A DNA stretch of 26,642 nt. Origin: a virus. The notes beneath the pieces are model-generated. The model had not been told where the DNA came from, did not search any database, and saw only the letters and a program-made list of their open reading frames with translations. Position numbers and translations under genes: made by a program. Positions 3,701 through 24,510 of the stretch are shown here, piece by piece (positions within the stretch are counted from its first letter, which is position 1; the number at the start of each line of letters is the position of its first letter). The DNA lies in the IMG/VR virus record IMGVR_UViG_3300007276_000248, positions 1 through 26,642 of that record; one strand, written 5' to 3'.

Positions 3701-6700
3701 TCATCGCCATCTGTAGTGAGAGAAGGAACTGAGTAAGACCACCCAGCTTCCATACTATCTAGAGGGTTTGCAAAGGTTCCCGCTGTTGGAGTTCCGATAC
3801 TAGAATCGTTGGCTTTATATAAGCTTACCGAACGAGTAGCTTGCCCTATGGCACCGTCTACACGTATAGCATATATTGCGGGAGTAGACCAACTAGCTTC
3901 TTGGGGTGCTAGTCCATCACTAGTGAAGATTCTTGTAGAGACATAAATCTCATCAAGGTCATTAGTTATACTAGGAACTGAGTAGGACCAAGAGCTATTA
4001 CCCGACAAAGGATCATCATACGTACCATTCCCCGAAACTATAGTACTAGAGTTTAATCTGTAAATACTAGGTTGTCTATAACCTTGTCCAGTATCACCGG
4101 CAGGGCCTGTAACACCGTCTGTCCTTACAGCATACAAGGTGGGCGTGTCCCAGCTAGCATCTTGTGGAGATAGACCATCATTTGTGAATGTACGAGTGCT
4201 GACGTAGACTTCATCACCATCTGTAGTGAGAGAAGGAACTGAATAAGACCACCCAGCTTCCATACTATCTATAGGGTTTGCAAAGGTTCCCGCTGTAGGG
4301 GTACCCATAGTAGAATCATTAGCTTTATAAACATTTACTGTTCTAACAGCCTGACCACTAGCACCTGTGGACCCATCAACACGTATAGCATATATTGCGG
4401 GAGTAGACCAACTAGCTTCTTGAGGTGCTAGTCCATCACTAGTGAAGATTCTTGTAGAGACATAAATCTCATCAAGGTCACTGGTTATACTAGGAACTGA
4501 GTAGGACCACATACCATTCCCAGACAGAGGATCATTGTATGTCCCTGAGCCTGCATTTATAGAGCTAGAGTTTAATCTGTAAATACTAGGTTGTCTATAC
4601 CCTTGTCCAGCATCACCAGCAGGGCCTGTAACCCCATCGGTCCTTATCGCATACAAGGTGGGGGTGTCCCAGCTAGCATCTTGTGGAAATAGACCATCAT
4701 TTGTGAATGTACGAGTGCTGACGTAGACTTCATCTCCATCAACAGTCAAGGCTGGAACGCTGTAGGTCCAACCTGCTTCCATACTATCTATAGGGTTTGC
4801 AAAGGTTCCCGCTGTAGGGGTATCCATAGTAGAATCATTAGCTTTATAAACATTTACTGTTCTAACAGCCTGTCCACTAGCACCCGTGGACCCATCAACA
4901 CGTATAGCATATATTGCTGGCGTAGACCAACTCCCTTCTTGAGGAGCTAGACCATCACTAGTGAAAATACGTGTACTCACATAGATTTCATCAAGATCAC
5001 TAGATAGGGTAGGGACTGAGTAAGACCACGAAGTATTGCCTGCCAATGGATCAGCATATGTACCTGAAGTTGAGCTTATAACACTGGAGTTCAACCTGTA
5101 AATACTAGGTTGTCTATAACCTTGTCCAGTATCACCGGCAGGGCCTGTAACCCCATCTGTCCTTACAGCATACAGAGCAGGAGTGCTCCAGCTGGCATCT
5201 TGAGGGGTTAGACCATCACTAGTGAGTGTTCGGGTAATGACATAGACTTCATCACCATCTGTAGTGAGAGAAGGAACTGAATAAGACCACCCAGCTTCCA
5301 TGCTATCTAAAGGATCCACAAAGGTCCCCGCCGTGGGGGTGTCTATAGAAGAATCGTTAGCTTTATATAGGTTTACTGACCGAGTAGAAACAGCAACAGT
5401 TAGGCTAAGGTCAATTGGACCCATAACGTCGGAAGGTACAGACCTACGACCTGTTGCTGTAAGTGTCCTAACACGAACATAAATGTTTCCTATAGGATTA
5501 CCTACAAACAAATTGAAGTGCTCATTACGAGTAGTACCCGCTAAGGTCCAGTCTTCGTCATCTGTGCTGTTAGTCTCAGCGTACTCTATCTCGTAGCCAT
5601 CCGTGCCGCTAGAGTCACTAGTACCCCAGCGGAGAAATATATAGTGTCCGTCGTTATTAGCGCGGTAGCCGTATACAGTTGGATCACTAAGATCCAATTC
5701 TGCAATCTCAGCGTTAAGTATATCTACTGGGAATACTTCAAAAGTGTTCCTGAACAATACATCGCTCAACATCTCATCGTCAGTGTTCCAAGCTAGGTCA
5801 GAGGCATTAATCAAGGTAGCAGATACCCTGACATTCAGATTCTCTAGTAACTCTACTCGTTCCACCCTCATGACATCGTCAACACTAGTGATGTTGTTTA
5901 TCTCACTGTTTAGTCGTATTACATCTCCCGGTTCCAAAGAGTACCCATCAGAGTACATTTCGAACTCATATTGGGTAGCCCTACGCGACTCTCTTACTGT
6001 TTGTTCACAGTATGCGGTAGCGTGGTAAGGGTCAGATATCCCATCACCATTCAGGAATGTGTTAAGTACCACCTCGTTGTCTTCAGCGAGGTAAGTCAGG
6101 TGTACCGCACTCCCTTTTGTTGGCCATGTTACTGTTGCAGATGCAAAGTCTTCTTGTTCATTGAGAAAACGCATACTAGCAGAGTTAAGCTTGGAATCGG
6201 CAGTAGGGTATATTGCTTTGATTGATGACCTTGCTAACATTTCATCCGTTACAACTAGAGTAGCTGCAGCGGCGGCTTTGAGAGCAGTCTGATCATCGAA
6301 ATAAGACATGTTCAGCTTGAACGTCCCTTCTGACCAAATAAGGTAGGCCGAGGGCATTGAGTTCAAGATAGACTGGACGTTGTTTTTAACAGGGTCACTC
6401 GGGTCTAACGCGATATTACACTCATACAAAGGCAAAGAATCAGCGTTGGTTGTGAAGATGTTTGATAACTGTCCGAAATCGTAAGACTCTATGACAGTCG
6501 AGGAATCTATTGTTGCTGCGCCTTGTATAGGTGTTACATCAGCTAAAGGTACTTGAATATCGGTACCATCGAATGTTGCGGAGCCAAAGTTTGCTATGTA
6601 CGCCCCACCCTCAGAACTAGGAACTACACCGCTATACCCACCTCCTAATGCTAGAGAGGTAGACAATGCATCCAAGTCAATTGTTCCGATAATTGTATTA

Positions 6701-7617
6701 GAAAATCTTAGATAAGCCTCTCCGAACTGCGTGTGTACAATTAGAGAGTTTTGGCCCTGTGTATTACCTGACCATACCTTTCCTTGACGCTGAATATCTC
6801 CGAGCCCCAGAGCAGGGTTAACTGTTTGATCACAAGTTACTTTGGCAGCAAAGAAACTTGCCAAGTCCAGATCACTTACTGCTAGGTCCATACCATAAGG
6901 GCCAGTAAGATAGTCAATAAGGACCAAAGCGGGGTTATTGGAATACAGTGTGTTTGCACCCCGTGTGTATGTGTAACTGCCACCACCATTATCAATGATG
7001 TCAGCAATAATCTTTCCTTTAACATAGAAAGTCATATCTGGTATTTGGTAGTACTGAGGGTCTTCGTGATTCAGCCAGAATACACCAGTGGCAAATGACA
7101 GTTCATCAAAGGTGTTCGTAGAAGGGAGGTTGTTAGCGGTAGCTAGAGGGCACGCTGTCCCTCCTTCATTGTAAACAGCTATCCGGTGACCACCGCCATC
7201 TTTATCAAATTCTTTATCGTTATAAGCAACGCCATCGACCTCGATATCAACAATCTCTTCAATATCTCCTTCACATATGGCGAATTGAGTAATTAGGAAT
7301 CGGTTCCGTTCTTTCTTAGCCTTATAACCAGTATCTATACCAAGGGCCTGATTATCCCCAATAGCAAATGTACGCTGGGCCCCGGTGGTGGCGTTATATA
7401 CATAGTCGTGTTCCGTACGGACATCCGCCAGTACACCGCCGAGCACCTGTCTCCCATATACAATAGGTACAGCGCTTGGCTCACCTTTGACTGTGAGTTG
7501 AAAACCTCTTTTCTTGTCAGCTTCTCTTTCAGCTTTAGCTTGCGCCCTCTTCTGTTTCCTCATCGTGACAACAGAGGACACAACAGAGATGACTGCCGCT
7601 ATAATTGCTACAATCAT
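724..7617 (-). CDS. J-like tail tip/host-specificity protein with repeats and adhesin domains (2297 aa)
   Basis: This is the central tail tip protein contacting the host. Residues 2-18 are hydrophobic (IVAIIAAVISVVSSVVT), followed by a basic coil and the tip signature 'SAVPIVYGRQVLGGVLADVR'. 'ALVLIDYLTGPYGMDLAVSD' further in is typical of tip-attachment phage J. A fibronectin-III-like unit spans ~642-732. Eight alternating units, four A-B pairs of ~85 residues each, span ~746-1423. A short collagen-like stretch follows (~1424-1448, GDTGATGATGDTGATGPDG). Then come beta-sandwich modules resembling carbohydrate-binding domains (FNPSFEAWFTGETYPEAW is a typical opening) and a C-terminal Ig-like unit. 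It is far longer than lambda J (1132 aa) because of the repeats and the adhesive C-terminus. ATGA coupling joins it to the upstream gene; TAATG joins it to the downstream one. Confidence 0.85.
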   Translation of the reverse strand: MIVAIIAAVISVVSSVVTMRKQKRAQAKAEREADKKRGFQLTVKGEPSAVPIVYGRQVLGGVLADVRTEHDYVYNATTGAQRTFAIGDNQALGIDTGYKAKKERNRFLITQFAICEGDIEEIVDIEVDGVAYNDKEFDKDGGGHRIAVYNEGGTACPLATANNLPSTNTFDELSFATGVFWLNHEDPQYYQIPDMTFYVKGKIIADIIDNGGGSYTYTRGANTLYSNNPALVLIDYLTGPYGMDLAVSDLDLASFFAAKVTCDQTVNPALGLGDIQRQGKVWSGNTQGQNSLIVHTQFGEAYLRFSNTIIGTIDLDALSTSLALGGGYSGVVPSSEGGAYIANFGSATFDGTDIQVPLADVTPIQGAATIDSSTVIESYDFGQLSNIFTTNADSLPLYECNIALDPSDPVKNNVQSILNSMPSAYLIWSEGTFKLNMSYFDDQTALKAAAAATLVVTDEMLARSSIKAIYPTADSKLNSASMRFLNEQEDFASATVTWPTKGSAVHLTYLAEDNEVVLNTFLNGDGISDPYHATAYCEQTVRESRRATQYEFEMYSDGYSLEPGDVIRLNSEINNITSVDDVMRVERVELLENLNVRVSATLINASDLAWNTDDEMLSDVLFRNTFEVFPVDILNAEIAELDLSDPTVYGYRANNDGHYIFLRWGTSDSSGTDGYEIEYAETNSTDDEDWTLAGTTRNEHFNLFVGNPIGNIYVRVRTLTATGRRSVPSDVMGPIDLSLTVAVSTRSVNLYKANDSSIDTPTAGTFVDPLDSMEAGWSYSVPSLTTDGDEVYVITRTLTSDGLTPQDASWSTPALYAVRTDGVTGPAGDTGQGYRQPSIYRLNSSVISSTSGTYADPLAGNTSWSYSVPTLSSDLDEIYVSTRIFTSDGLAPQEGSWSTPAIYAIRVDGSTGASGQAVRTVNVYKANDSTMDTPTAGTFANPIDSMEAGWTYSVPALTVDGDEVYVSTRTFTNDGLFPQDASWDTPTLYAIRTDGVTGPAGDAGQGYRQPSIYRLNSSSINAGSGTYNDPLSGNGMWSYSVPSITSDLDEIYVSTRIFTSDGLAPQEASWSTPAIYAIRVDGSTGASGQAVRTVNVYKANDSTMGTPTAGTFANPIDSMEAGWSYSVPSLTTDGDEVYVSTRTFTNDGLSPQDASWDTPTLYAVRTDGVTGPAGDTGQGYRQPSIYRLNSSTIVSGNGTYDDPLSGNSSWSYSVPSITNDLDEIYVSTRIFTSDGLAPQEASWSTPAIYAIRVDGAIGQATRSVSLYKANDSSIGTPTAGTFANPLDSMEAGWSYSVPSLTTDGDEVYIITRTFTSDGLAPQDASWSTPAVYAIRVDGVTGATGDAGQGYRQPSIYRLNSSTIVLGNGTYADPLSGNSSWSYAVPTITNDLDEIYVSTRIFTSDGLAPQEASWSAPAVYAIRVDGDTGATGATGDTGATGPDGRPGLPGAGILLEYDDLQGPLVNTGSGQYNLWSTIEGDGTTVWSRIASSDIESINLTKIDSSGANKENELNSVRVGDHITFYVSSGKWVDYAVTEVSRTGDAFLYEVEYVEHDDTDGTSNIDANPNFNITFRFSRPEPGTGNQAEIYGFNPSFEAWFTGETYPEAWLQYASTPNKITSEVTQGKNAVGFTVGWGTDAGIYQSNPINYHIDSAVIGSIDVYISTFTGGGSPGLMIDLVDGTSYHRHRVPADTSIVGSWQTINFATSKNLSNGTSVGTPTAYDILRVYVMGSDSDMSGGRFRGTVYFDNLRLEVVSPNVAEAVAGANGNIFGEDGANLEDIDLRNDQAVLNMLNAVNINPSMGQGSTHGSFVGPLGYATNSPGTWPLYVSGTKDLLLISSNVTLNAAAIKTKPGVRYEVSALVSSHNGTSFNIDLRAEEYNSVELDYQDYFIGSTNVDANNMAGRDGFVVISDDHTIPTSGYELVTGIYTPQPGCEWFSPSLYANGTGNPFRVDWFIVREVGSASVDFGGLVHNSFFNNIDSSDGTPAGWYLTNSTMALLSYADVTSSTCRVDGVTDNYVTLVSTAIPINPNTTYKIRVKVRATNTTTANTFFIRPVERDTDLNIGKVAIRRTSDADTPDGKHKYYTDDSTREDASWGPVELIGSSTWEVHEMTYTPTSTAKWMSINLLCWDSAKGYFDFEYVTMESRSTEGADWDTNVDNLPTNLDNLTGSEDILNSDIDTHLIADNPVTVWVTNDGSNYTPSIPETSTDTQDVVIQAIANGVISSVTWRWTATNNPASNVDTVAGAFTGTSTGWTAGTVNGSGTRYADVTITHTASGETIWLNGNVVNITVTAGK
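3349..5382 (-). repeat. Eight alternating ~255-bp coding repeats in the tip gene
   Basis: Four A-B pairs. A units carry 'VYKANDST', 'TPTAGTFANPIDSMEAGWSY', 'DGDEVYV' and end 'RTDGVTGPAGD.GQG'. B units carry 'YRQPSIYRLNSS', 'DPLSGN.SWSYSVP', 'DLDEIYVSTRIFTSDGLAPQ' and end 'RVDGSTGASGQA'. The second and third pairs are almost identical at the nucleotide level. The third B unit has a shortened collagen-like linker (DGAIGQA). This suggests recent recombination or duplication. Confidence 0.9.
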
Positions 7618-8168: not shown

Positions 8169-8767
8169 TATAAAGCCTCTATTAGGTTAATGGTTCCAGC
8201 ATCCGAGAGGATGCCATCCGTAAATGTAATTCCTTGTACATTAGAAATATCCCTGTAAGCAGTAAATGTAATACTGTCACCGGAGTCCCTGTATAAGAAA
8301 GCTGTTGCAGTTGGTACATTCGATACCAGAGCGGGATATATCGAAATATCCCCCGTTCCAGAATAGAGTGCAGTTACCAAATATAGTTTGTCGTGATTAG
8401 CAAATTTAATGAATCGACCCTTGGCTATAGTCCCATTAGCGCTGGCGAGGGCAACCTCCGTTTCACCAGCGGAATGAAAGCCGTTAACCGTCACAGGTAC
8501 CGTAGAAGTACCTTGGCTAATGGTCGTGCCCCGAACATTAAGCTGGGGCATCTCCATAGTTTGAGCATCGTGGAATGTACTAACCGAATCAGCTATAAAG
8601 CTTGAAGAATCCTGAAGGATCAACCCAAACTCCAACTCCCAACGTTGAGCACCCTGCCTGACCCTTCGTACCTTAAGTGATACAGAGTCAGACGAGAATA
8701 CAGGCTCGTTAGAAGAAAGCCTAAAAGGGGCTACTATATCGTGCCCCTGAAACTGGTAAGTTGACAT
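8168..8767 (-). CDS. Minor/distal tail protein (199 aa)
   Basis: A beta-rich protein directly after the tape measure, in the slot of lambda gpM or distal tail proteins that link tube and tip. The N-terminus 'FQGHDIVAPFRLSSNEPVFS' and 'KVRRVRQGAQRWELEFGLIL' is reminiscent of minor tail proteins of marine siphoviruses. The C-terminal half has repeated hydrophobic strands. Its ATG overlaps the tape measure stop (TAATG), and GGGAG lies 8 bases upstream. The precise family is uncertain. Confidence 0.6.
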   Translation of the reverse strand: MSTYQFQGHDIVAPFRLSSNEPVFSSDSVSLKVRRVRQGAQRWELEFGLILQDSSSFIADSVSTFHDAQTMEMPQLNVRGTTISQGTSTVPVTVNGFHSAGETEVALASANGTIAKGRFIKFANHDKLYLVTALYSGTGDISIYPALVSNVPTATAFLYRDSGDSITFTAYRDISNVQGITFTDGILSDAGTINLIEAL

Positions 8768-11700
8768 TACCCGTTCTCCCTGTTAAATTGATTGACACCG
8801 GTTGCAATTGTTGGTAGCATACCGACTATTTCTTTCTTAGTTTGGCGAGAAATATCACCGTTAATGTTGATTGCAATACTCTGTTGATTAGTACCCTCAG
8901 ACTTTTTGCCCCCCTTAGCAGAAGAAAACAACTCCATTTGTTGAGCCTCCGAGAGGATCATCTCACCACCATTGAGTTTGTGGTAGCCTCCACCGTCAGG
9001 GACAATACCCCCATCGTGGAAGAACATTCCCGCTATGCCCCCAATAGCACCAAAGAGACCACCGCCTCCTCCGCCGCCACTGAAAAGGCCCCCAAGCATA
9101 GAACCAAGACTACCGAATATGTCTTTGAGCCCACCAAGGTTCCCAGAGAGAAGATCACCGAATCCACCTTTGAACCTGTCGAACATAGTAGTCCAAGGTC
9201 CAGTGGCTGCTTCAGCCCCTTCTTCTAATCCTTCTCCGACTTCAACATCAACCCCGGATATCTTAGGAGTTTCACCTGAGCCAGATAGGTCCTCTTTACC
9301 CTTGAGGAGTTTACTGCCTTTAGCTTCAAGAGCATCTTTCTCAGCATTACTAGGACCTCCTAGTAATCCTAGTAATCCTTTACTTTTTTCCAGAATAGTC
9401 TCAAATGTACCTGTGAAGAAAGAGGTCATACGTGCTTGGAAGCCATTAACTATAGAGTTGAGGATAATCTCTTGCAACAACTCACCGACCGATTTCTCAC
9501 CGCGAAGGACATTCATGATACCTTGGGACAGACCACTAGCTATATCTTCAGCTGTATCTCTGGCCCGTAGTGCATCTTCCTGTGCCTTCCTAGCTTGCTC
9601 TTGGAGCTCGAAAACCTTGAAGTTAAACTCTGCAACCGCAGTAAGTAGCTTTTGACCTTTTAAGTTACCATCCAAGAACCTGTTGTTGATAGTCTCATAC
9701 TCTTCACCGAGTACTTTGGCTTGGGTCAGGATATCAGAACTTATTGTGGCACTCAACTCTTTGAAAGCATCAGTGTCAATGTTTGCACCAATATCCTTAA
9801 ATGGAGCCAGAGCTGCATCAAATGCAGTTAGATCCATCTCCTTCAAAGCAGTGGTTAGATCCTCTTGTACCGTCGCGCCTAACTCTTGAATAGCTTGTGT
9901 GAGTCGTTGTCTTGCAGCAGGATCAGTTAGCTTAACTTCATCCAACTCCTTACCTAGCGAGGCCAATGCGTTGGCGTTCTCGATCAGGCTAGTTCGAGCT
10001 TCTCCACTTACAGAGGCAATTTCAGCAAGGCTTGTGGAGATGCCAGCATCACTTAGAGAGGCAATAATCCCTTCCATAGGAGTCAGCAGGGATCTCTGAA
10101 GTCTCCTTCCGGTAGCTTCTGCAGCCCTCTCAGCAGCATCAAGTTGTAGTTGTATAACTTCTTGCTGAATGAGCCCATCATTCCCAAGTTTCTTAGCCTC
10201 CCCAATAGCACGACGAAGATCTTCTACTTTTTGTTGAGCGGTAACCACCGCTTTTTGGTCAGCGTCGGACAACAGCTGGAATTTAGGTATAGAGAAGTTC
10301 AAAGAAGCAGCTAAGTCAAACTTGCTTATCTTTGCTATCTCAACACCTATCTTCTTAATAGCTTTGAGGGACTTATCGTAGTCTTTAAGCTGCTTAGCGA
10401 CGATATCCGCTTGCTCTTTGGGTGATAGTGAGCTATCAGAGAAAGCAACCTTAATGGCTTCTATGTAGCCCAAAGACTTCGCAACAAGACCGTTATAATT
10501 TTCCTGTTCTTCAGAATTTAAACGTAAGAAATCAGCTTGAGATTTAATTTGCAGTACTTCACCACCCAAGAGTTTTGAAGAACCTTCAATTAGATCCCTT
10601 GACGACTTTCGTTGCTCGTTGATCTCTTCCAGAAACTTCCCAACATTTATCAGGGATCTTCCTTCTAAGTTTAGGAGTTTAAGCTGCTGCTCTTTGATTG
10701 CAACAGACTTCTCTAGTTCGGCAATATTGACTGGGTTATCAATATCATCCCCTATAGCGTCTTGAAGATTCTTAGTCAATATCTGGTATTCTACAGCAGT
10801 CTCGTTTAGATTCTGTATGAACTCCTGACCTAAGAAACCCTCCGCACCGATATCGTCTGGATTAGCTAGGTCTATACCTAGGTCTATTATATTCTCACCA
10901 GCGTTAAGATCATCAACGAGTTTATTTATAGCAGAACGAGTGTCTGGAACGAAGTCTGTGAGATTTGGCTTGAGATCTATCGGGGCGTTTAGCCCAACTT
11001 GCTGAAACCCGCTATTTATAGCACCAGCAACAGCCTGCACTTCCCGAGAGTTGATTACGTCCTTGAATATATTACGTAGTTTACCACGGGCATTGGTAAG
11101 GCTGATTCCAATCTCAGTAAAGGTTTCTATGGCAAAGAATTTGAGGTTACCAAGAGCCAGTGTAGCAGAGTCAATAGGGTCTGTAAACCACTCTAAGATG
11201 GCTATAGAACCATCAGCGGGTAACCCTAGCGCGACTCTAGCTAGTCTCTCCTCAAACTGTTCAACAAGATCGAGAGAATCAGCTAACGTTTGCTCCTCTA
11301 GTTCAACCTTAACATTAGTTTCGTATGTTTTGCCAAATGTAATACCAATTATATCACCTAGACTAACTGCCTTTCCTGTAGTCTTTTCCATCTCACGGAT
11401 AGAGGTGGAAGCAGCCTTAGATGAATTCGAAAATAAGAACGTAGCAGCTCCAACAGCAATGGCTATCGCTTTACCGAAGCCGGGAACCAGCTTAAGTGCG
11501 GTCCTTAATCCTCCTGCTACAGTGGTGAACACCCTTGCAAAAGTAGGAACAAGATTCTTGACGTTCTTACCTAGCCCCAATAAAGTAGGAACAATATTCT
11601 TGATGTTCTTACCTAGCCCCGATGAGCTTGCAATAGCTGCTATTTGTGCCTTAGAGAAGTTTATCAAAGAGGCTATCGCACCCTTGATAGAAGTAGCTAG

Positions 11701-14628
11701 GGCAGTAAAGCTAAAGGCATTTGCAGTATTAGCTGCAGTGCTTGCAGTTGTTGCAGTAACATTAGACCATTTGGCAATAGTATCTGCGATGACAGCCTTA
11801 ATTGCTGGAATTTGGAATTTAACCCACAACTTAAGCTGCTTAGCTGCCTCTTTGAAGGAGGCCTTGGATTTGTCAGTAATACCTAATAGAGCTTTCAGCT
11901 TGTTACTAAAACCTCCAACTCCGGCTCCACTTCCAAATCTACCCGCAAGGTCAAAGTTGGACAGGTCTTTCAGTTTAGCAGCTAGAACACCAAGGAGTCC
12001 CCCTTCTTTACTTAACTTTTTGAATTTGCCTTGTAGGGCTGTAAATAAAGAAGATGAAGCTGCTTCTCCTGCCTTCTTGGCTTCCGTGTTCCAGCCAAAT
12101 AAGAACTTACTGAACTTGCTGATTACGAAGGAACCTACTATGCCCCCAACAATTACTTCACCAAGGCTACGGAATATGACTTGTATAACATCACCGATTA
12201 TACCTAATTGGTCGAGGAATGCTCTACCAAACTCCGCAGCAGCTTTTATTATACTGGCTATAATTCCAAGAATAAGTTTGTCAAGATTTGCGACAAAAGC
12301 ACCTGCAGCCCGACCCAGCGCGTTGGCTAGGAACTTAACTGCACTGTCTAGAGTTGTGATCAGCTTCTCAGGGTCTACACCTGAGGCCAATACGTTACCA
12401 AGAGTAACCCCTATGAACCCGAGGCCTCCCCCAAACTTTTTAACAAAGAGGCTCAAGGCTAGGCCAGAAGCAATGTCGAAAGCAAGAGGTAACTCCTTCT
12501 GGAAGAAGGATATAGCTTTACTGAAAGCCCCACTGAAAGCGACAAAGACACTAGCAGCGCTTATTTGTACTGCACCTAGGCCTGAAGGTATGAGTTCAAC
12601 TGCTATCGCTACTCCTGTTCTGAGCGCATTTCTCATCCTAGCAAATGCCCTCATAAAGCCAGAGGAGCCATCTGTTAGTTCCTCAAAGAACTCCCTGCTA
12701 TTCTTCATGCCGTTGAATACGAAGAATTTTATACTGTTGAACATACTTCTAAATACGCCAACTACTTCCTTACCAAAAAGTTTAACGTGCCTTAGCCCTT
12801 TTGTCACTAGATTCTTGGACCAATCGATGACGCCTCTTATGGTATCGGGCCAATAAGAAGAGCCCACAATCTTTACATACATCTCTTGGAATATACCAAG
12901 TACTCTTTTTCCGAAATTAATCACAGGAGCCAATGCGTTAGATATTGACTTGGAAAAGTCACCTATAGCCTCTCCCAGTTGCTCTACTAGTCGAACACGA
13001 TTGAGGCTTAGCCCACCAATACTCTGGAATAGACTAAACACACCTTCGACCAGATCAGCAGGACTGATAGAGAACAGGGCATTTAACCCTTTAGTAAGGA
13101 CTGACACTCCTTTCGATATGCCAGATTGGAATAAATTCGATACGGTAGTAAACAAACCACTAATAGACTTAGCTGCCTTTTTGATAGGGTATGTTAGCAC
13201 AGCAAGAGCTGCAACCATAGCGGTTGTAGATAGTACAGCAGCGGTCGCCGCTTGGGCAATATAAGAGAATACAGAACTTCCTGATAATTCTTTACCTAGG
13301 TTCTTTATTTGAAAAAACACAAAGGAAAGGTTGACTGCTAGGGATCTTATTCTGTCACTTAATCCCGCGCTCAACTGAGAGGCAAAAGCTCTTGTATTAG
13401 CTCCCAGCACCGCTAGGCTTACACCAACCCCAAGCACAACACTGTTGAGGGAGAGCAAGCTACTTCTTACAGCCTTATTTAGAAAAGACCTTTCTAATGC
13501 GTTAGCGGCTATGTCTAAGAAGAATGCTAAATTGTCAACAGTGTTTGACAAGGTGAAAAACACACGTGCTAGTGTAGGGGCTATTTTTCGGGAAATTATC
13601 TGAAAAGAGGACGCGAGTTCTTGCACCCTCAACAGAAAGGATAAAGGAAACACTCGGGATACACCGGCTGATAACAGCCGTACAGTGGCGCTACCTAAGT
13701 TTAAAAACGACTCTACTAGCTCCTTTATGGAGGCTATTAATATTGGGTTTATGAACCTACTAAAATCAAAAGAGAATAAGGAACTTAGAGCGGCTCCTGT
13801 GCTTCTCGCAACTGGTCCCAGCGCCTGTAACCTGTTTGCTAAAGAAAACAAACCTTCAGTTATGACAGAAGTAGCTCCCGTCCCTTTAACGAATTCTGAT
13901 ACAACAAAGCTCATACCTTCACCCGCTTGGGTAGAACCTTGTGAGAAGGTGGCGTCCATTGCGGCAAATTCTTTATCGATCTCTGCACGCTGGTTACGGA
14001 AGGCATCAATAACAACCTCGGAGGTGATCTTACCTTCCTGAGCTAATGCCCTTAGACCCCCTACCCCGACTCCTAGTTCCTTGGCCAGTGCTGCTGCTAC
14101 TCTTGGTGTTTGTTCTAGTACGGAGTTAAGTTCTTCTCCACGGAGCTGCCCAGAGGCCAAACCTTGACCAAGCTGAACAATAGCCGCGTTTGCAGATGAT
14201 GCGTCAGCACCAGAGATGACAATAGCTTTCTGAATTGACTCTGTTACTTGCAGCAGATCTTCGTTACTTACACTAAGATCCTTTGTGGACCTACCTAGTC
14301 GGTTATAAAGGTCTGACAGAGTACCAATGGAGCCTCGTGATCTTAGTGCTGTTTTCTGTAGAGAGTTAAATGTGGTGGAGAGTTCTTGTGTTCTCCCCGT
14401 AACCAATGCAATACGGTTTTCTATGTTTGTAAAAGTATCTGCTGCCTTAGCAACACCCTTTAGAGCAAAAGCAGCGCCTAATCCCGTGCCTATAATTCCT
14501 ACTGCCCGTTGGACAGAGGAGGCAACCCTACTTGTGGTTGCTGATATATTATCAACCGATTTGTTGAGTTTCGCGAGATCTGCTCTGGCTTGTCTGGAGT
14601 TCGAATTGACTTCAATCTCTATAGCGAT
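8767..14628 (-). CDS. Tape measure protein, starting at ATC (1953 aa)
   Basis: Tape measure proteins set tail length and pass through the tube at ejection. The N-terminal region holds a TIGR02675-like tape measure domain: 'DTFTNIENRIALVTGRTQEL', 'LYNRLGRSTKDLS', and the hallmark 'QLGQGLASGQLRGEELNSVL' (residues ~152-171). Long Ala/Leu/Lys-rich helices with hydrophobic segments follow, then a Gly-rich stretch and a C-terminal 'FFHDGGIVPDGGGYHKLNGG' (from ~1869). By the lambda ruler relation (~0.15 nm per residue) the tail would be near 290 nm. I start it at ATC 14628: the first 74 codons (MAIEIEVNSNS...; AVGIIGTGLGAAFALKGV) are family-like and follow a perfect AGGAGG. A start at TTG 14406 would cut into the domain and lacks a ribosome site. 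A 14-residue tandem repeat lies at 11543-11626. The stop overlaps the next ATG (TAATG). Confidence 0.85.
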   Translation of the reverse strand: MAIEIEVNSNSRQARADLAKLNKSVDNISATTSRVASSVQRAVGIIGTGLGAAFALKGVAKAADTFTNIENRIALVTGRTQELSTTFNSLQKTALRSRGSIGTLSDLYNRLGRSTKDLSVSNEDLLQVTESIQKAIVISGADASSANAAIVQLGQGLASGQLRGEELNSVLEQTPRVAAALAKELGVGVGGLRALAQEGKITSEVVIDAFRNQRAEIDKEFAAMDATFSQGSTQAGEGMSFVVSEFVKGTGATSVITEGLFSLANRLQALGPVARSTGAALSSLFSFDFSRFINPILIASIKELVESFLNLGSATVRLLSAGVSRVFPLSFLLRVQELASSFQIISRKIAPTLARVFFTLSNTVDNLAFFLDIAANALERSFLNKAVRSSLLSLNSVVLGVGVSLAVLGANTRAFASQLSAGLSDRIRSLAVNLSFVFFQIKNLGKELSGSSVFSYIAQAATAAVLSTTAMVAALAVLTYPIKKAAKSISGLFTTVSNLFQSGISKGVSVLTKGLNALFSISPADLVEGVFSLFQSIGGLSLNRVRLVEQLGEAIGDFSKSISNALAPVINFGKRVLGIFQEMYVKIVGSSYWPDTIRGVIDWSKNLVTKGLRHVKLFGKEVVGVFRSMFNSIKFFVFNGMKNSREFFEELTDGSSGFMRAFARMRNALRTGVAIAVELIPSGLGAVQISAASVFVAFSGAFSKAISFFQKELPLAFDIASGLALSLFVKKFGGGLGFIGVTLGNVLASGVDPEKLITTLDSAVKFLANALGRAAGAFVANLDKLILGIIASIIKAAAEFGRAFLDQLGIIGDVIQVIFRSLGEVIVGGIVGSFVISKFSKFLFGWNTEAKKAGEAASSSLFTALQGKFKKLSKEGGLLGVLAAKLKDLSNFDLAGRFGSGAGVGGFSNKLKALLGITDKSKASFKEAAKQLKLWVKFQIPAIKAVIADTIAKWSNVTATTASTAANTANAFSFTALATSIKGAIASLINFSKAQIAAIASSSGLGKNIKNIVPTLLGLGKNVKNLVPTFARVFTTVAGGLRTALKLVPGFGKAIAIAVGAATFLFSNSSKAASTSIREMEKTTGKAVSLGDIIGITFGKTYETNVKVELEEQTLADSLDLVEQFEERLARVALGLPADGSIAILEWFTDPIDSATLALGNLKFFAIETFTEIGISLTNARGKLRNIFKDVINSREVQAVAGAINSGFQQVGLNAPIDLKPNLTDFVPDTRSAINKLVDDLNAGENIIDLGIDLANPDDIGAEGFLGQEFIQNLNETAVEYQILTKNLQDAIGDDIDNPVNIAELEKSVAIKEQQLKLLNLEGRSLINVGKFLEEINEQRKSSRDLIEGSSKLLGGEVLQIKSQADFLRLNSEEQENYNGLVAKSLGYIEAIKVAFSDSSLSPKEQADIVAKQLKDYDKSLKAIKKIGVEIAKISKFDLAASLNFSIPKFQLLSDADQKAVVTAQQKVEDLRRAIGEAKKLGNDGLIQQEVIQLQLDAAERAAEATGRRLQRSLLTPMEGIIASLSDAGISTSLAEIASVSGEARTSLIENANALASLGKELDEVKLTDPAARQRLTQAIQELGATVQEDLTTALKEMDLTAFDAALAPFKDIGANIDTDAFKELSATISSDILTQAKVLGEEYETINNRFLDGNLKGQKLLTAVAEFNFKVFELQEQARKAQEDALRARDTAEDIASGLSQGIMNVLRGEKSVGELLQEIILNSIVNGFQARMTSFFTGTFETILEKSKGLLGLLGGPSNAEKDALEAKGSKLLKGKEDLSGSGETPKISGVDVEVGEGLEEGAEAATGPWTTMFDRFKGGFGDLLSGNLGGLKDIFGSLGSMLGGLFSGGGGGGGLFGAIGGIAGMFFHDGGIVPDGGGYHKLNGGEMILSEAQQMELFSSAKGGKKSEGTNQQSIAININGDISRQTKKEIVGMLPTIATGVNQFNRENG
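11543..11626 (-). repeat. 42-bp tandem duplication inside the tape measure gene
   Basis: Two adjacent, nearly identical 42-base units (11543-11584 and 11585-11626) encode GLGKNIKNIVPTLL and GLGKNVKNLVPTFA. The reading frame is preserved. It looks like a recent in-frame duplication that would lengthen the tape measure by 14 residues. Confidence 0.85.
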
Positions 14629-16035: not shown

Positions 16036-16111
16036 TGGTGCCACCACCAAGAGTCGAACTCGGGACATCCTCATTACAAGTGAGGCGCTCTACCAACTGA
16101 GCTATAGCGGC
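16036..16111 (-). tRNA. tRNA-Thr, anticodon UGU
   Basis: A complete 76-base cloverleaf can be drawn. The acceptor stem pairs GCCGCTA with TGGTGGC (7 pairs, two G-U). The D stem is GCTC/GAGC with loop AGTTGGTA. The anticodon stem is CCTCA/TGAGG with loop CTTGTAA, giving anticodon TGT, which reads Thr ACA. The variable loop is ATGTC. The T stem is CCGAG/CTTGG with loop TTCGACT, and CCA is encoded after discriminator A. It sits inside the structural operon, between the tail-tube gene and a small gene, on the coding strand of the operon, so it is probably cut from the late transcript. All stems are intact, so it looks functional. Confidence 0.95.
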
Positions 16112-18081: not shown

Positions 18082-19266
18082 TTAAGCGTGGAAAATTGGC
18101 AGAATACCCAAATTAAGAGCATCAACCTTACGAGACCATGTAGGTGTACCTACAGTACCAGCAAGTGAAACGTTAGTTGCAAAGGCAGTCTGTGTGCCTG
18201 TAAAGCTGTAACCACGGGGGTGCATTACGTAGCCCCAACGGTACCATGCAGTCGTGCGACCAGAACCCATGCCTACGTGCTCGTTGCGATCAACGGCGAC
18301 GGGGCTGGGTACAGGAACAGGCTCCATGAACATAGAACCGGGCAGCATCATGTATGATACTTTAGGTGCGATAGCAGTAACGCCACTCAGACCAGCGTTA
18401 GTAGCAGAAGCCAGTGCGTTACCAAAGTTGCGAGACACGATTACACGTACAACACCACCGAGGATAGTTTCGAAAGAAACGTTACCATCAGTAACACGCT
18501 CGTCGTCAACCAAGTTGGCAACCTTAACATCTAGGTATACTTCAGGTGAAATTACCATGTATACAAATTCAGGGTTGTAGTCAGACCATGCACCCATAGC
18601 GCGGATGATGTGCTCAACTCGCTTACCGGGGATTGACTGAGTGTTGTCAACGAGGGCTTCGATGCTAGAACCAGTGCCAACAGTGTCGGAACTAGAAGCT
18701 ACATAACCAAAGGCTTTGCTGTTGTCAGCATCTACAGAGTTACCCAACCATGCTTCGGTATAGTTAGTGGGGCCAATGTCGTTAGCAACCTTGAGTTCGG
18801 TGTTCATGACACCAACAAGAGCAGCACGCAGAGCTTGATCTTCGTCTTCTGCACGTGTTTCAGAAAAATCACGAGCGATCTTAGCAAGACCATTTTCGCC
18901 AGAAACAACCGACTGGACCAAGTACTCGTTTGCACCGTGGGTACGAACAGTTTTGATGTACGTCTGTACTTCAGTAGAGATGTTAGTCGTGCGACCGTAA
19001 TCTTCAGATTGAGTAGCAACGTTAACTACGGAGTTTGAAGAACCAGTTGTGTCTTCAGAGGTTTCACCAGTTGCGCCAACAGCGTAGGCACCAAGAGGCT
19101 TGTAGAAACGAACCTGACCAATAAAGTCTTCGCCGGTTGCGTTAATTTGTGCCTCAGAACCCATAAGTTCTGTGCTGACGAGCTTCTTGGCTCTGGTGTA
19201 CATCTCGTCTGTGTAAGCGGAAATCGCCTTGTTCAAAGTGCCAAATGCACTAGAAGAAATAGCCAT
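18082..19266 (-). CDS. Major capsid protein (394 aa)
   Basis: This is the shell subunit, by position after the scaffold and by character. It has a 394-residue length usual for HK97-fold coat proteins, an N-terminal helix followed by a segment 'GQVRFYKPLGAYAVGATGE', a long acidic helix (DFSETRAEDEDQALRAALVG) that fits the spine helix, and a C-terminal beta-rich half with GYSFTGTQTAFATN near the end. There is no obvious cleaved prodomain. The leader contains AAAGGAGAGT 5 bases from the ATG, a strong ribosome site. The fold assignment is inferred from context and secondary-structure impression, not from a search. Confidence 0.85.
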   Translation of the reverse strand: MAISSSAFGTLNKAISAYTDEMYTRAKKLVSTELMGSEAQINATGEDFIGQVRFYKPLGAYAVGATGETSEDTTGSSNSVVNVATQSEDYGRTTNISTEVQTYIKTVRTHGANEYLVQSVVSGENGLAKIARDFSETRAEDEDQALRAALVGVMNTELKVANDIGPTNYTEAWLGNSVDADNSKAFGYVASSSDTVGTGSSIEALVDNTQSIPGKRVEHIIRAMGAWSDYNPEFVYMVISPEVYLDVKVANLVDDERVTDGNVSFETILGGVVRVIVSRNFGNALASATNAGLSGVTAIAPKVSYMMLPGSMFMEPVPVPSPVAVDRNEHVGMGSGRTTAWYRWGYVMHPRGYSFTGTQTAFATNVSLAGTVGTPTWSRKVDALNLGILPIFHA

Positions 19267-19302: not shown

Positions 19303-19977
19303 TTAAACCCAATTACCTGTGCTATCAAACTGACCAGCAGCAGCAGCTGCCATAAGTTCGTCGGTTGACATTTCAGTAATAGGCTTGGATGTGTTGAATT
19401 CACCAGCATTGTTCACTTTATCTTGACCAATACCAGTTGATGTCTTAGGCTTAAACAAGAATTCTTTGTCCTCGTCCTTTCGGAAACTTTCGATAAAGTC
19501 TTTAACAGAAGCACCTGTGCGGTGTACCCACTTTCCATTTTCATCTTGGATTAGTTGAGCCACTACATCTCTGTATGCAAAATCCGCAGCTGTATCATTT
19601 TTGAAATCTAGACCTTTAAGGGAGTCACGTACAACGTTATCTCTGGTTAGATTAGTAATTTGACTTTCTTTCTCATCGAGTTTAGCAGTTAGTTCCGCTA
19701 TCTTCATCTGAGCAACTTCAGTATGCTTACCTTCGTCTTCGAGACGTTTCATCTCATTCTGCTTTTTCTCTTCCTCAAAGCTGACTGCCTTCTTAATTGC
19801 CTCGTCACGAGACTCATAAGCACTGTCTAGCTTAGCCTTGATACCTTTGAGTTCTTCGGCAACACGCGCCTCTACAATCTTTGCGAGTTCGTCTTTGTTG
19901 ACTTTACTACTGGATTCATCATTTTGGTCTTGAGGTTTCTGATCATCAGAATTGTTATCATTATTATCTTCGGACAT
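19303..19977 (-). CDS. Capsid scaffolding protein (224 aa)
   Basis: Scaffold proteins direct assembly of the capsid shell and leave before or during DNA packaging. The product is acidic, has a disordered N-terminus rich in Asn/Asp/Gln, then a long charged coiled coil (about residues 28-110, with ELAKIVEARVAEELKGIKAK and EEEKKQNEMKRLEDEGK), a small C-terminal region, and a tail containing MAAAAAGQFDSTG. This composition and the position immediately before the major capsid gene are typical of siphovirus scaffolds. AAGGAG with a 7-base spacer precedes the ATG at 19977. No protease motif is visible. Confidence 0.8.
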   Translation of the reverse strand: MSEDNNDNNSDDQKPQDQNDESSSKVNKDELAKIVEARVAEELKGIKAKLDSAYESRDEAIKKAVSFEEEKKQNEMKRLEDEGKHTEVAQMKIAELTAKLDEKESQITNLTRDNVVRDSLKGLDFKNDTAADFAYRDVVAQLIQDENGKWVHRTGASVKDFIESFRKDEDKEFLFKPKTSTGIGQDKVNNAGEFNTSKPITEMSTDELMAAAAAGQFDSTGNWV

Positions 19978-20040: not shown

Positions 20041-23000
20041 TTAAGGTCCTATACCGTAGAAATCCCAACCTTCTGGGATATCGGCAAGGATATCTTTGGC
20101 GGTAACGCCGTTTTCTGGATTCAAGAGACCTAAATCTTTGGCTCTCTTTACAAGCTTATTGTAAGAGCTATAAGAGAGCCCTTCACGTCTCATTTGTTTC
20201 AAGGTATTTAGGATCGTATCACCCTCGATTGCCTCTGCGTAGATGTCCCTAAGCTTCCACTTAGCATCTAGAGAGTCAGCGAGGTTGGTGAAAAACCCAT
20301 CGTGAATTGTTGCGGTATTCACATTGTTCTTTTTGCCCCACAAGTGGAACTTCCTGACAATGGTTGCATCATTCATGTGATTTCCATTTACTCCTAAACC
20401 GCTTCGAGCATTGATAATTGACGACCTTCCTAAGAATTTGTTATCAGTTACCGTATCCTCGAATACGTTCTTAACCCTACGGCCAGTAACAGGATCTAGA
20501 AATTCTATTGATTCCTGAACTGTTGGCCTGTATCGCTGATACAAGACTTTACCATCTATAGTAACCCAAGGTATATCAACACGCTTCGATTCTGTGATGT
20601 AAATATCTGCAACTTCTTTCCAGTATGAAACGAAGTTCTCCGTGATAGGAGCAATATCTTTAAGGTGTTTCGACATTATTTTGGCCACTTCTCTAAATTG
20701 AGCAGGGCCTACGATATTTCCTTTGACATTGGTCAGCTTTTGAACAAAGAGCTCTGAGTCGGGGTGTATGTCTCTAGCGTGAGCTAGCAACCTATTCCCT
20801 ATCGGAGCATTGTTATTAATTGAGTAGTTTACTTCTGTCTTGAGTGATCTCAACTGCGCTGCCACAGACACCGCGTCATCTGACACCGCCCGTTTAATGG
20901 CATTGTCGAGAGACTTGTTAAATGTACTCAGACCAGAAGCTGTTACTACTGTGTAATCTTTAGAGGCAAGAACCTTTGCGAGTTTCCCCTCAATGGCCCC
21001 TGCCTGTGTGGCTGATCCAGCCCCGTAAAACGCAACCATTGATTGTCCCTTTGCAGCTTTAGCCATATCGCTAAAGGTAAGGTCATTACCCAATGGGTTT
21101 ATTTTTTGAAAGTCTGGATCAGACATTGTTCGTTCTGCAACCAAATCGTAGAGTCTATTCTTACGATCGGTCGCTAATATGTTAGAAGCATTAGCCAAGG
21201 CTCTATCTCTTGTAGATAAGGCTATCAGCTGGGCTCCCGATGCGGATGCATCATTCTCATTACCTAGTTGTGTCTTATACGTATTCAACCGGGCAGTATT
21301 ATTGAAATCACCATCTACATGCTTATGTATTCTTGTGTACTCTAAAGCAAATCTTGCGAGTTTAGGGACTTCCTCTGCATCAATACCTTGGATAAGAGGG
21401 TGTTCTAAAAACTCCCGAATTCGTCGGTCCTTCTGCGTCTTAGAGAGAAGTAGCTCTCCTATTTCTCTGAAAGCTCGCTCGTTCCGTATGAAAGATGACA
21501 TACGTCCTTCATTGGTCAAAACGCTAGAGGCTTCCCCTACTAGGGTGCCTAATTGTACCCGTAGCTCCTGCATCACAGGGGGAGAAATGTTCTTAGCAAT
21601 CTTAGTGTTCAGGAAGGGGCGAATGAATTCACCACCGGCAGGATGTAGGTACCCTTGGGTATACAACCGTCCTCTTCCATCGATCTGAGCTATGTTACGC
21701 CAAGATGTACCATTATCCAAGTGCCACTTAATAGACTGTACCAAACCACTGCCTGCTTCTCCTCTCTGGATAATAATTTTACGAAAACTATTTAACTCAT
21801 CAAACTTCTTCACATTACCACGAGGGTCTCGGAAGTGTGCTAAGTCATAAAAGAAAGAAGCGAAGTCGCTGTCTGTTTCCCATTCGAAATCCATGGCATG
21901 ATTTAGCATACCGGAGAAATCTCTATCAACTAAATTCTGTTCGTAGTTTCCTCCTGCTCTACGTGTAATAACGCTTTGCTGGGTCTTTCTACCTCTAGAA
22001 TCGAAGTAAGTCTTTGAGCCTGCTTTCACAAACAAACGATCACGCTCGTTCACCACACCTATTCTACGAGAATAAATGAGCTCTCTGGCGGCACGTTGTA
22101 GTTTCAGCATCTCAGGGTCGACTATCTGGACTTCACGGGATATAGTGTCTTTAAATGAACCCTGTTGTGGTCTCCCTGATTCAAGATCATTGATACCTCG
22201 TCTGGTCACTCCTCTCATCCCTACTCTTATCTTACCTTGGTCTTTTAATCCATCTAGGATGTTGGAACCAACTTTGTGGTAGTTCTTGAGTGTTGGGGCA
22301 CCGAATAGTAAATCGAAGTCCCCTTTCTCTGCTTCGAATATCTTTTTACCAATCTTAATCGATAGGGAGTCATAGTCTGTTGAAGTACCAGTAGCTACGT
22401 CTTTAACGATGTCTGCTAGCAAAGCTGTACGTTTCTGAACATACTCAGGCGTGAGTTGTCTTTGCGTAAAGTCATCCTTACGTCTGGTATATAACCACTC
22501 TAGATCTAGGAATCGTCTTTTCCTCTCGCTACCTGCTTGCAGGAATCGTGTCAATAAGGAGTCAGAAGGTTCCCCATTCCACCTCTTGATGAAGGCCTTA
22601 CCAAAAGGTAGGTTCTCAATCTGGGCTATTATGGACTTCTTCACCTTCGCCTTCGATGGTATGTAGCTAGGAGTCTTGGGGAAATATGTACGTAGTGGGG
22701 AACGCCCTGAGGAGTACAACCGTCTCGCCACAGGTAAACCCCCTTTCACACTCCATTCATCTATGAACTTCTGGTTTGAGAGGGTTCGGTCTGCTATAGA
22801 GTTAAAAGAAGTCCACTCACCTAGGATCTGTACTTGTGCAGCATCCTGATCAGGTCCGAATTTAAAAATACGGCTTCTAGCTCTTGATCGTCTGTCTAAA
22901 ATACGAGAGGTGTTAACAACGGAATTCTTTAATTCTGCTTTTAGTACTTGGTCCAAGTTGATCCAAGGTATCTTGTCTTTAGCGTGTCGTTCGAATACTA

Positions 23001-24510
23001 TACGTAAGTTCTCTACGACCGCTGTCTGTTGGTTAACTGACAATCCTTGGTTCTCTAGTGTGTCCACGTAGTTCAAGATCCAATCTTTCTTCTCCCTATC
23101 AAGTAACTTAGAGTTATTCAAAAAATCCCTTCGTTCTTGGTAGACACTGAAGTCTGGATTGTATATGAGAGTGGACTTTTGTTCTCCCGTTAGGGGGTCA
23201 ACCCCTACATTCCTTTCATCGAATTCATTATTAGCTCGACGCCTACTGGCACGTTTACCCGGTAAGGATGTACCTCGATAGTCCGTTAAGGACAACGGGG
23301 AGTGGATACCTGCCGCTTCGGCTCTATAAAACACACTTAACTCTTCTTCTAATTTTTTATTTCGGATGAGTTGATTAGGTCTTGAAGCCGTTACTGATAA
23401 GTTATTTATAGCGGAGGCATTTAGAGCTCTCTGTTTCACAGGTACACTTATGGTGTTACTGTTGTCGATTCGACGTAGAGCTGTCAATGAAAGAGGCTTA
23501 CCACTTGCTGTAGTAAACTTTTCCAGTGGGAGTTGACCAGAATCAAAGAGATCTACTTTCTGTACATCACCTTGAAAATGTCGCAACTTGGTTTCCCTAG
23601 GTTGCCGTTTAAGCCATTGTCCATAATTCTCTACAGCAGGAGCTTTACCATTAAGCTTTTTGATACCTGCTAGGTTCAGAGATTTCAGTACCTTTTTCTT
23701 AATTTTGGGTGACTGAGTGGAAAGAAGGTCATCATATGACTTCACTACGGGCACAATCGTTGATCGACAGCGCCAGTGCAAAGGAGGTATGAATCGGGTA
23801 TCTTCTACATCATAAACTTTTCCGTCATGATGAGCACATATTTGAGAAGTACGACTATCTAGTACCGCAGTATACCTCATACCTTCCAAGATCTCTTTAT
23901 TCTCTTGTAGAGTCATTAATTGAGATGTGGATTGAGTACGAGTAACCGCTGTGCGTACTAATGCTGAAGCTTGAGACTCGGTCAACCTAGTAGCTCGTTG
24001 AACCTGCCGAGATAACTCCTTGTTATCCCAACCTTCTCTTAGTCCTCTTCGTATCGTATTGTCTATTCTATTCAACTCAGATGCGCCAAGGGCATGGATC
24101 CTCTTAGTGAGATTACCGTCTCCCCTCACATTCTCTCCTACAATTCGGGTGAGAACCTTGAGTGAGCCCGGTTTCCTAACTGAGGAAAAGGCACTAACTG
24201 ATTTGTTCAGGCTGTTACTAGTAAAATCGACCTCGATTAATCCTAATTCTTTGAGAGAGGAAATAGAACCGCTATCTAACTGAGTGACAAACCTTCGAAC
24301 TTCTCTGCTCGTTGAGGTTTTCATTGAGCTGAAATCTTTAGAGTCAAACGCCTTCTTAAACTCAGGACTGGCTACTATCTTCTTTAGTTCCTTCCTGTGT
24401 TTGCGGATGAATCGCTTAGTGTCGATCTGCATCTTGTCTTCAAACATACGAGACATAGCAGCATGGTCAACAGAGCGATCATAGAGATCTTGATTAACAG
24501 AATCTCCCAT
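20041..24510 (-). CDS. MuF head protein fused to a T7/N4-type single-subunit RNA polymerase (1489 aa)
   Basis: Residues ~130-255 are a MuF (SPP1 gp7-like) domain: helices with TESQASALVRTAVTRTQS, then 'LDSRTSQICAHHDGKVYD' (C225, H227/H228) and 'PPLHWRCRSTIVP' (H245, C248). The C-terminal half has the single-subunit RNA polymerase motifs in order: DxxGR at D944-R948 (IDGRGRLY), motif A with D1087 (NENDASASGAQ; G1092 and Q1094 match T7 G542 and Q544), motif B with K1154 and Y1162-G1163 (same 8-residue spacing as T7 K631-Y639), and motif C with H1403-D1404 (TIHDGF against T7 IHDSF). Both metal-binding Asp are present, so catalysis is plausible. Residues ~350-930 are unassigned and may hold the polymerase N-terminal domain. 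Motif C (HDGF, not HDE) and DxxGR argue against a family A DNA polymerase. AAAGGAG precedes the ATG. The gene sits in the usual MuF slot, suggesting a virion-packaged polymerase. That role is inference; the domain calls are firm. Confidence 0.85.
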   Translation of the reverse strand: MGDSVNQDLYDRSVDHAAMSRMFEDKMQIDTKRFIRKHRKELKKIVASPEFKKAFDSKDFSSMKTSTSREVRRFVTQLDSGSISSLKELGLIEVDFTSNSLNKSVSAFSSVRKPGSLKVLTRIVGENVRGDGNLTKRIHALGASELNRIDNTIRRGLREGWDNKELSRQVQRATRLTESQASALVRTAVTRTQSTSQLMTLQENKEILEGMRYTAVLDSRTSQICAHHDGKVYDVEDTRFIPPLHWRCRSTIVPVVKSYDDLLSTQSPKIKKKVLKSLNLAGIKKLNGKAPAVENYGQWLKRQPRETKLRHFQGDVQKVDLFDSGQLPLEKFTTASGKPLSLTALRRIDNSNTISVPVKQRALNASAINNLSVTASRPNQLIRNKKLEEELSVFYRAEAAGIHSPLSLTDYRGTSLPGKRASRRRANNEFDERNVGVDPLTGEQKSTLIYNPDFSVYQERRDFLNNSKLLDREKKDWILNYVDTLENQGLSVNQQTAVVENLRIVFERHAKDKIPWINLDQVLKAELKNSVVNTSRILDRRSRARSRIFKFGPDQDAAQVQILGEWTSFNSIADRTLSNQKFIDEWSVKGGLPVARRLYSSGRSPLRTYFPKTPSYIPSKAKVKKSIIAQIENLPFGKAFIKRWNGEPSDSLLTRFLQAGSERKRRFLDLEWLYTRRKDDFTQRQLTPEYVQKRTALLADIVKDVATGTSTDYDSLSIKIGKKIFEAEKGDFDLLFGAPTLKNYHKVGSNILDGLKDQGKIRVGMRGVTRRGINDLESGRPQQGSFKDTISREVQIVDPEMLKLQRAARELIYSRRIGVVNERDRLFVKAGSKTYFDSRGRKTQQSVITRRAGGNYEQNLVDRDFSGMLNHAMDFEWETDSDFASFFYDLAHFRDPRGNVKKFDELNSFRKIIIQRGEAGSGLVQSIKWHLDNGTSWRNIAQIDGRGRLYTQGYLHPAGGEFIRPFLNTKIAKNISPPVMQELRVQLGTLVGEASSVLTNEGRMSSFIRNERAFREIGELLLSKTQKDRRIREFLEHPLIQGIDAEEVPKLARFALEYTRIHKHVDGDFNNTARLNTYKTQLGNENDASASGAQLIALSTRDRALANASNILATDRKNRLYDLVAERTMSDPDFQKINPLGNDLTFSDMAKAAKGQSMVAFYGAGSATQAGAIEGKLAKVLASKDYTVVTASGLSTFNKSLDNAIKRAVSDDAVSVAAQLRSLKTEVNYSINNNAPIGNRLLAHARDIHPDSELFVQKLTNVKGNIVGPAQFREVAKIMSKHLKDIAPITENFVSYWKEVADIYITESKRVDIPWVTIDGKVLYQRYRPTVQESIEFLDPVTGRRVKNVFEDTVTDNKFLGRSSIINARSGLGVNGNHMNDATIVRKFHLWGKKNNVNTATIHDGFFTNLADSLDAKWKLRDIYAEAIEGDTILNTLKQMRREGLSYSSYNKLVKRAKDLGLLNPENGVTAKDILADIPEGWDFYGIGP

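Follow-up and report, generated by a model that had tools for sequence, protein, structure and literature searches.

A MuF head-protein domain joined to a T7-type RNA polymerase in a single open reading frame: a candidate virion RNA polymerase of long-tailed phages

A 26,642-nucleotide stretch of viral DNA (IMG/VR record IMGVR_UViG_3300007276_000248, positions 1 to 26,642; hereafter, the window) contains a gene in which a MuF-type head domain is followed by the hallmarks of a single-subunit RNA polymerase, raising the question of whether the phage loads a polymerase into its own virion and delivers it along with its DNA. The sequence-only reading that drew attention to this gene had described one uninterrupted frame at 20041-24510 without giving its strand. 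The frame is real and unbroken and lies on the minus strand, encoding 1489 aa from an ATG start to a stop codon at 20041-20043. Pfam placed Phage_Mu_F (PF04233) at aa 148-252 (23755-24069, minus strand; E 1e-15, 58.8 bits against a curated cut-off of 29.6 bits) and RNA_pol (PF00940) at aa 1075-1454 (E 2.3e-7), each match exceeding its own cut-off. These are the only Pfam domains in the protein, whose C-terminal end is formed by the polymerase; Pfam gave no match to a zincin metallopeptidase-type C-terminal domain, which is a feature of N4-type virion polymerases. PHROGs profiles for head morphogenesis (aa 3-365, E 4e-54) and RNA polymerase (PHROG 414, aa 942-1217, E 5e-21) also matched, while the N4-type profile PHROG 2166 reached only 0.007; MuF-type (PHROG 241) and RNA polymerase PHROGs both matched in all 30 members of an alignment of full-length homologues (identity down to 39%). 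The fusion ORF is confirmed, and the co-occurrence of a MuF domain and T7-type motifs in one frame is borne out by both Pfam and PHROGs.

HMMER aligned three stretches of the fusion to T7 RNA polymerase around D421, D537, and H811-D812, in that order, and the residue numbers proposed earlier (D944-R948, D1087, K1154, Y1162-G1163, and H1403-D1404) were exact. On the minus strand, the DxxGR motif (DGRGR, D944-R948; 21667-21681) corresponds to T7 D421-R425, motif A (ENDASASGAQ; 21229-21258) supplies catalytic D1087, equivalent to T7 D537, motif B (21016-21060) reads K1154-x3-M1158-x3-Y1162-G1163, and motif C (TIHDGFF; 20290-20310) contains H1403-D1404, equivalent to T7 H811-D812. Motif B of T7 RNA polymerase comprises K631, M635, Y639, and G640 in the established numbering, i.e., the same K-x3-M-x3-Y-G spacing. 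Residues D944, R946, G947, R948, Y950, D1087, K1154, M1158, Y1162, G1163, H1403, and D1404 were invariant in the 30-member alignment, and the C-terminus (YGIGP; 20044-20058, minus strand) was conserved. Loss of D1087 or D1404 among homologues, which had been named as grounds for refutation, was therefore not observed. With these catalytic residues present and in order, the protein meets, as far as sequence can tell, what is required of a T7-type single-subunit RNA polymerase.

To this can be added the predicted structure. AlphaFold, given residues 340-1489 and 34 sequences, returned a model with a mean pLDDT of 82 and a pTM of 0.74. Among solved structures, Foldseek ranked T7 RNA polymerase (E 5e-19) and mitochondrial polymerases best, and VIA gave a Z of 28.6 against T7 RNA polymerase (525 residues, rmsd 3.7 Å, over model residues 233-1148), compared to ~25 for mitochondrial polymerases and 14-16 for the N4 virion RNA polymerase (vRNAP). 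Since the structural match extends to T7's final residue, 883, the polymerase fold looks complete; it occupies aa 572-1489 (20044-22797, minus strand), or approximately T7 residues 38-883 by AlphaFold, Foldseek, and VIA. Absence of a polymerase fold had also been listed as a refuting outcome; instead, a polymerase fold is predicted, its N-terminal part and C-terminus included. The best BFVD match by far was a 1463-aa protein at 46% identity, a length and identity that fit the homologue of phage DSS3_VP1. Between the MuF domain and the polymerase fold lies a conserved, mostly helical region to which no fold was assigned (aa 340-567; 22810-23493, minus strand). The MuF part (residues 1-590) was predicted at a pLDDT of 83, and because a structure search found no match for it among solved structures, the MuF assignment rests on sequence profiles. 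In a phylogenetic tree, the fused polymerases formed one clade (100/99 support), well separated from the T7 and SP6 enzymes, the stand-alone polymerases, and N4 vRNAP, and an origin of the fused polymerase by duplication of a stand-alone one was rejected on that basis. The deeper order of the tree is unsure due to long branches, with N4 on a very long one. By sequence and predicted fold, then, the polymerase is of the T7/mitochondrial type and not of the N4 vRNAP type.

A profile-guided scan found relatives of the fusion encoded in 380 IMG/VR stretches, and dozens of IMG/VR contigs carry full-length relatives at 36-72% identity. Since the same full-length fusion recurs in so many separate contigs and in deposited phages, it is neither a chance product nor an assembly artefact. 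Three deposited genomes carry it: DSS3_VP1 and DSS3_PM1 (43% identity), whose host is Ruegeria pomeroyi DSS-3 in the case of DSS3_VP1, and EBPR siphovirus 1 (~32%, in pieces). DSS3_VP1 gp108 and its counterpart in DSS3_PM1 ('minor head protein-like'; Naomviridae) are full-length homologues, and gp47-gp49 of EBPR siphovirus 1 are a homologue in pieces; in all three phages the proteins were deposited as head proteins and the polymerase part is unannotated. The suggestion that such a fusion was undescribed stands in part: we found no MuF-polymerase fusion in the literature searched, although an earlier mention in the description of DSS3_VP1 is not excluded, and homologues labelled only as head proteins were already in GenBank. 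A scan of 84,980 prokaryote genomes, one per species, with only two conserved peptide patterns yielded no relative, although such a procedure could miss distant forms. This absence suggests that the carriers of the fusion are probably virulent phages, as judged from sequence data, and it argues against a toxin role in lysogeny. DSS3_VP1 and DSS3_PM1 are roseophages with dU-DNA (for DSS3_VP1, PMC12697855). A phage of this type might well profit from a polymerase of its own, but that does not show how the fusion functions.

Several variants of the gene deserve mention in their own right. In EBPR siphovirus 1 (L082), an HNH/NUMOD1 endonuclease gene (23186-24040) splits the fusion at motif B, after residue 1159, resembling a homing element in the active-site stretch. 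A 1983-aa version of the fusion (L070, 7970-13921, and L069) carries an in-frame insert of ~320 aa that follows residue 1444, close to the C-terminus, besides further insertions. Group I introns were rejected as the source of these interruptions, since Rfam detected none in EBPR siphovirus 1 or L070 and the latter is a single frame. Pelagibacter phage Kolga encodes a related 633-aa MuF protein without a polymerase (L125, 14998-16899) as well as a stand-alone polymerase, which makes it a naturally occurring comparison for how the fusion was gained or lost.

The genomic setting of the fusion is that of a head protein. The portal gene lies upstream and runs to the contig end (24993-26642; PHROG 145, E 8.5e-53), the head scaffolding gene is directly downstream (19303-19977; PHROG 206, E 3e-13), and the major head protein follows (18082-19266; PHROG 247, E 2e-17), all on the minus strand. 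DSS3_VP1 has the same succession of portal, fusion, scaffold, and major capsid genes. The gene for SPP1 gp7 occupies the same place, and its product attaches to the portal protein gp6 and is directed into the procapsid (PMC6316719). A position beside the portal and ahead of scaffold and capsid is thus what a MuF protein of the SPP1 gp7 kind should have, and the fusion has it. The window consists of head and tail genes only, its early region being outside. Further downstream is the gene for a cysteine-free, 1879-aa tape measure protein (8767-14406, minus strand; Pfam TMP_3, E 1e-48). Its ORF starts with TTG, and since residue 1 of the ORF aligns to position 19 of the Pfam profile, the true start may lie upstream. 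A 2297-aa protein of the tail region (724-7617) contains internal direct repeats at a spacing of ~519 bp (~173 aa) and has only weak matches, to carbohydrate/peptidase-associated domains. A tRNA-Thr gene (anticodon TGT; 16036-16111, minus strand) sits within the structural operon, and relatives carry tRNA-Asn or tRNA-Thr/Ser.

If the polymerase part travels with the virion, its composition may bear a trace of that life. Across 30 orthologues, the polymerase part contains 1 cysteine in 34,599 residues (none in 29 of the 30, one in the other), and the only two cysteines of the window's fusion, C225 and C248, are both within the MuF domain and both invariant. By comparison, the vRNAP of N4 (gp50) has 0 cysteines in 3500 residues, while stand-alone polymerases have 12 (T7), 10 (SP6), 6 (Kolga), and 7-8 (those of the same phages). 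Depletion is not unique to the fusion, since other late proteins of these phages are also cysteine-poor: in DSS3_VP1, cysteine makes up 0.47% of late proteins vs. 1.2% of early ones. The tape measure protein, in general also an ejected protein, has none. At 0.47%, finding 0 cysteines in 1150 residues would still be unlikely, with a Poisson probability of ~0.005 for one protein. Cysteine loss in the polymerase part, as read from these sequences, supports a virion or ejected life without proving it.

Besides the fusion, a second T7-like polymerase, which stands alone, is encoded in DSS3_VP1 and in six long relatives; it scores ~270 bits compared to ~30 for the fused one. Two classes of promoter-like sequence were found. 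Class 1, ATAGGGTGCGTTAAAGAGGGG, occurs in about a dozen coding-strand copies in DSS3_VP1, ahead of structural and other genes, and its sequence varies between relatives while that of class 2 is nearly constant. One class-1 variant, TAGGTGACGTTAAAGAGG, resembles the SP6 promoter, and on that basis class 1 is assigned, by inference, to the stand-alone polymerase. SP6-like class-1 candidates are located between record positions 2242 and 59196 in L127 and L126 (DSS3_VP1). Class 2, AAAAAGTGAGAAAACTAAGGCATCTATAATGA in DSS3_VP1, is a conserved promoter-like motif of ~35 bp with the form AAAAAGTGAGAAAA-N7-ATCTATAATGA; it is present at 35.8 and 36.3 kb in that genome (NC_055826), preceding the gene block that includes the stand-alone polymerase, and near-identical copies occupy the corresponding place in divergent relatives. 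Neither class was found inside the window, and a single ATAGGATAGTGGACTC near its contig end has no close repeats. Since the window stops short of the early region, the motif and the second polymerase are inferred for this phage from its relatives, the closest of which with class 2 (L024/G003) has a fusion 67% identical.

A degenerate search pattern for class 2 with 20 fixed bases, TATAAT among them, picked out 90 stretches among 2.9 million viral contigs, many of them with 2-5 copies, and a PF00940 protein was present in 57 of 78 class-2 contigs tested, including every contig >13.1 kb. All 99 sites in the 48 pieces with both a site and a stand-alone gene (a few of them overlapping) were on the same strand as that gene and 0.6-7.3 kb upstream of it; most of these pieces are stretches around the class-2 site, so that absence elsewhere is shown only for longer contigs. 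A portal was present in 8 of 19 class-2 records tested, and all 8 carried the fusion. Since the tested records without the fusion also lacked a portal, they are taken to be fragments and were rejected as true exceptions. Of 50,697 phage records, only those of DSS3_VP1/PM1 matched class 2 convincingly over its full length, and the motif was absent from Kolga. Just downstream of class 2, 63 of 99 sites can fold into a stem of ≥6 bp beginning at a conserved TGA vs. 3% in shuffles, and the stems pair despite differing in sequence (TGATAC/GTATCA, TGAACT/AGTTCA, TGATATA/TATATCA; L148-L227). Such a hairpin may act in the RNA, as a 5' stem-loop, or just as well in the DNA, as a promoter hairpin of the sort that N4-type virion polymerases use. 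In the EBPR siphovirus lineage, the fusion occurs without a class-2 motif, and the partial genome showed no second polymerase; a two-polymerase cascade may therefore not be universal.

These observations are best accommodated, in our view, if the protein serves as a virion RNA polymerase that is loaded through MuF, ejected, and used for pre-early transcription from class 2 before handing over to the stand-alone polymerase, a reading to which we assign a probability of roughly 0.8. The N-terminal MuF part would bind the portal during head assembly and so bring a small number of copies into the head. The polymerase part, kept cysteine-free so that it can pass down the tail and traverse the periplasm, would leave with the DNA and refold in the cytoplasm. 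There it would transcribe the pre-early genes from class-2 promoters upstream of the stand-alone polymerase gene, and the stand-alone enzyme would then read middle and late genes from the SP6-like class-1 promoters. The proposal that MuF acts as a packaging and delivery tag is supported by the predicted fold, the invariant active site, the gene order, and the cysteine-free polymerase part, and further by the second polymerase in longer relatives and the promoter-like motif, with its position upstream of that polymerase's gene, all of which, like the fusion itself, are computed directly from the data. In the absence of proteomics or transcription data, it is by inference only that the protein is packaged, ejected, and active and that each promoter class is assigned to its polymerase, and the same is true of portal binding, presence in the virion, promoter-specific RNA synthesis, and independence from the host polymerase.

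Because class 2 precedes the gene of the second polymerase, it must act before that enzyme exists, leaving the host polymerase or a virion polymerase to read it. The polymerase could accordingly be packaged and active while class 2 serves as a set of host sigma-70 promoters, its own target being elsewhere (other promoters, or a genome pulled in by transcription). Many phages do use the host polymerase for pre-early genes, and the CTATAATG with which class 2 closes is a perfect -10 hexamer, so that host sigma-70 polymerase is not excluded. However, the hexamers 16-18 bp upstream match TTGACA at ~1 of 6 positions, no better than chance; conservation is contiguous over ~30 bp, through the would-be spacer, a pattern shared with T7-family promoters; T7/SP6 promoters, too, have CTATA as their core; and class 2 co-occurs with the fusion. 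Lacking a -35 element at that distance, the sigma-70 interpretation was set aside, but it remains a possible, if not the favored, explanation.

It is unlikely that the enzyme instead acts late without being ejected, with MuF tethering it to the portal or capsid and coupling late transcription to packaging or assembly. The fusion gene does lie within the late structural operon, as this would predict, but in the relatives a stand-alone polymerase with promoter-like sites of its own already serves later genes, the loss of cysteine would be left without a reason, and MuF proteins are, by precedent, internal head proteins (PMC6316719). We consider still more doubtful an effector-like role against the host, e.g., harmful non-specific transcription in place of phage promoter use: MuF-effector fusions are common (PMC5512222, PMC6316719), yet no toxin domain is present, every catalytic polymerase residue is kept, and the fusion is not a prophage trait as far as the scan of sequenced prokaryote genomes with two peptide patterns, which gave no relative, can show. 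A decayed remnant kept only for structure, which the low similarity to T7 RNA polymerase (~15%) might suggest, is scarcely credible when the DxxGR, A, B, and C motifs are invariant and the predicted fold is complete across 39-72% identity.

Returning to the virion polymerase, we hold it somewhat better than an even chance that the fusion represents an undescribed class: a MuF-delivered T7-type enzyme of long-tailed phages that has its own 35-bp pre-early promoter with a 5' hairpin and sets off a cascade of two polymerases, maybe independently of the host polymerase and, in one family at least, on uracil-substituted DNA. If true, MuF, which is common in tailed phages and a known carrier of toxins, would be an added delivery route for virion polymerases and would be capable of carrying a large, processive enzyme. 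It would also explain how widespread phages, dU-DNA roseophages included, could start transcription. The interest is high because the candidate promoter is precise and directly testable in the cultured phage DSS3_VP1, and the system may yield a cysteine-free T7-type polymerase with a new promoter specificity.

Earlier examples of virion polymerases come from N4-like phages, jumbo phages, crAss-like phages, and P23-45. Fusions of MuF to a cargo are on record as well, and the combination of the two is not found in the literature searched; in the accessible part of Iyer et al., N4-like RNA polymerases are confined to N4-like phages and a MuF-polymerase fusion is not described (PMC5512222). With the T7 and SP6 RNA polymerases, the fusion shares a predicted fold, catalytic motifs, and motif spacing, whereas those enzymes stand alone, are made in the cell after infection, and contain cysteines. 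SPP1 gp7, Mu gp30, and the MuF-toxin fusions resemble it in their MuF domain, portal-adjacent gene, and C-terminal enzymatic cargo (PMC6316719, PMC5512222). However, the toxin fusions bear toxins and belong to temperate phages, while the cargo here is an RNA polymerase and the phages are apparently virulent; no prophage copy of the polymerase fusion turned up in the 84,980 genomes scanned with two peptide patterns. N4 gp50 (Schitoviridae) is likewise a single-subunit polymerase within a large virion protein, with a cysteine-free polymerase, and N4, like the relatives of the fusion, has a second phage polymerase, in its case made after entry. The fusion matches N4 in the lack of cysteine only in its polymerase part, the MuF part retaining two, and delivery in N4 depends on N- and C-terminal domains rather than MuF. 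Nor does the fusion belong to the N4 vRNAP branch by structure scores, by PHROG 414 over PHROG 2166, or by the tree, its fold being nearer the T7/mitochondrial enzymes and very long branches separating it from N4. In P23-45, a polymerase fused to the tape measure protein transcribes pre-early genes, including that of a second polymerase, and relatives without the fusion also lack the pre-early motif (PMC10770324). Thus P23-45 is also a long-tailed phage with a polymerase carried on a structural protein, a second non-virion polymerase, and a dedicated pre-early motif, but its enzyme is a two-barrel (cellular-type) polymerase borne on the tape measure protein, whereas here a T7-type polymerase is borne on MuF.
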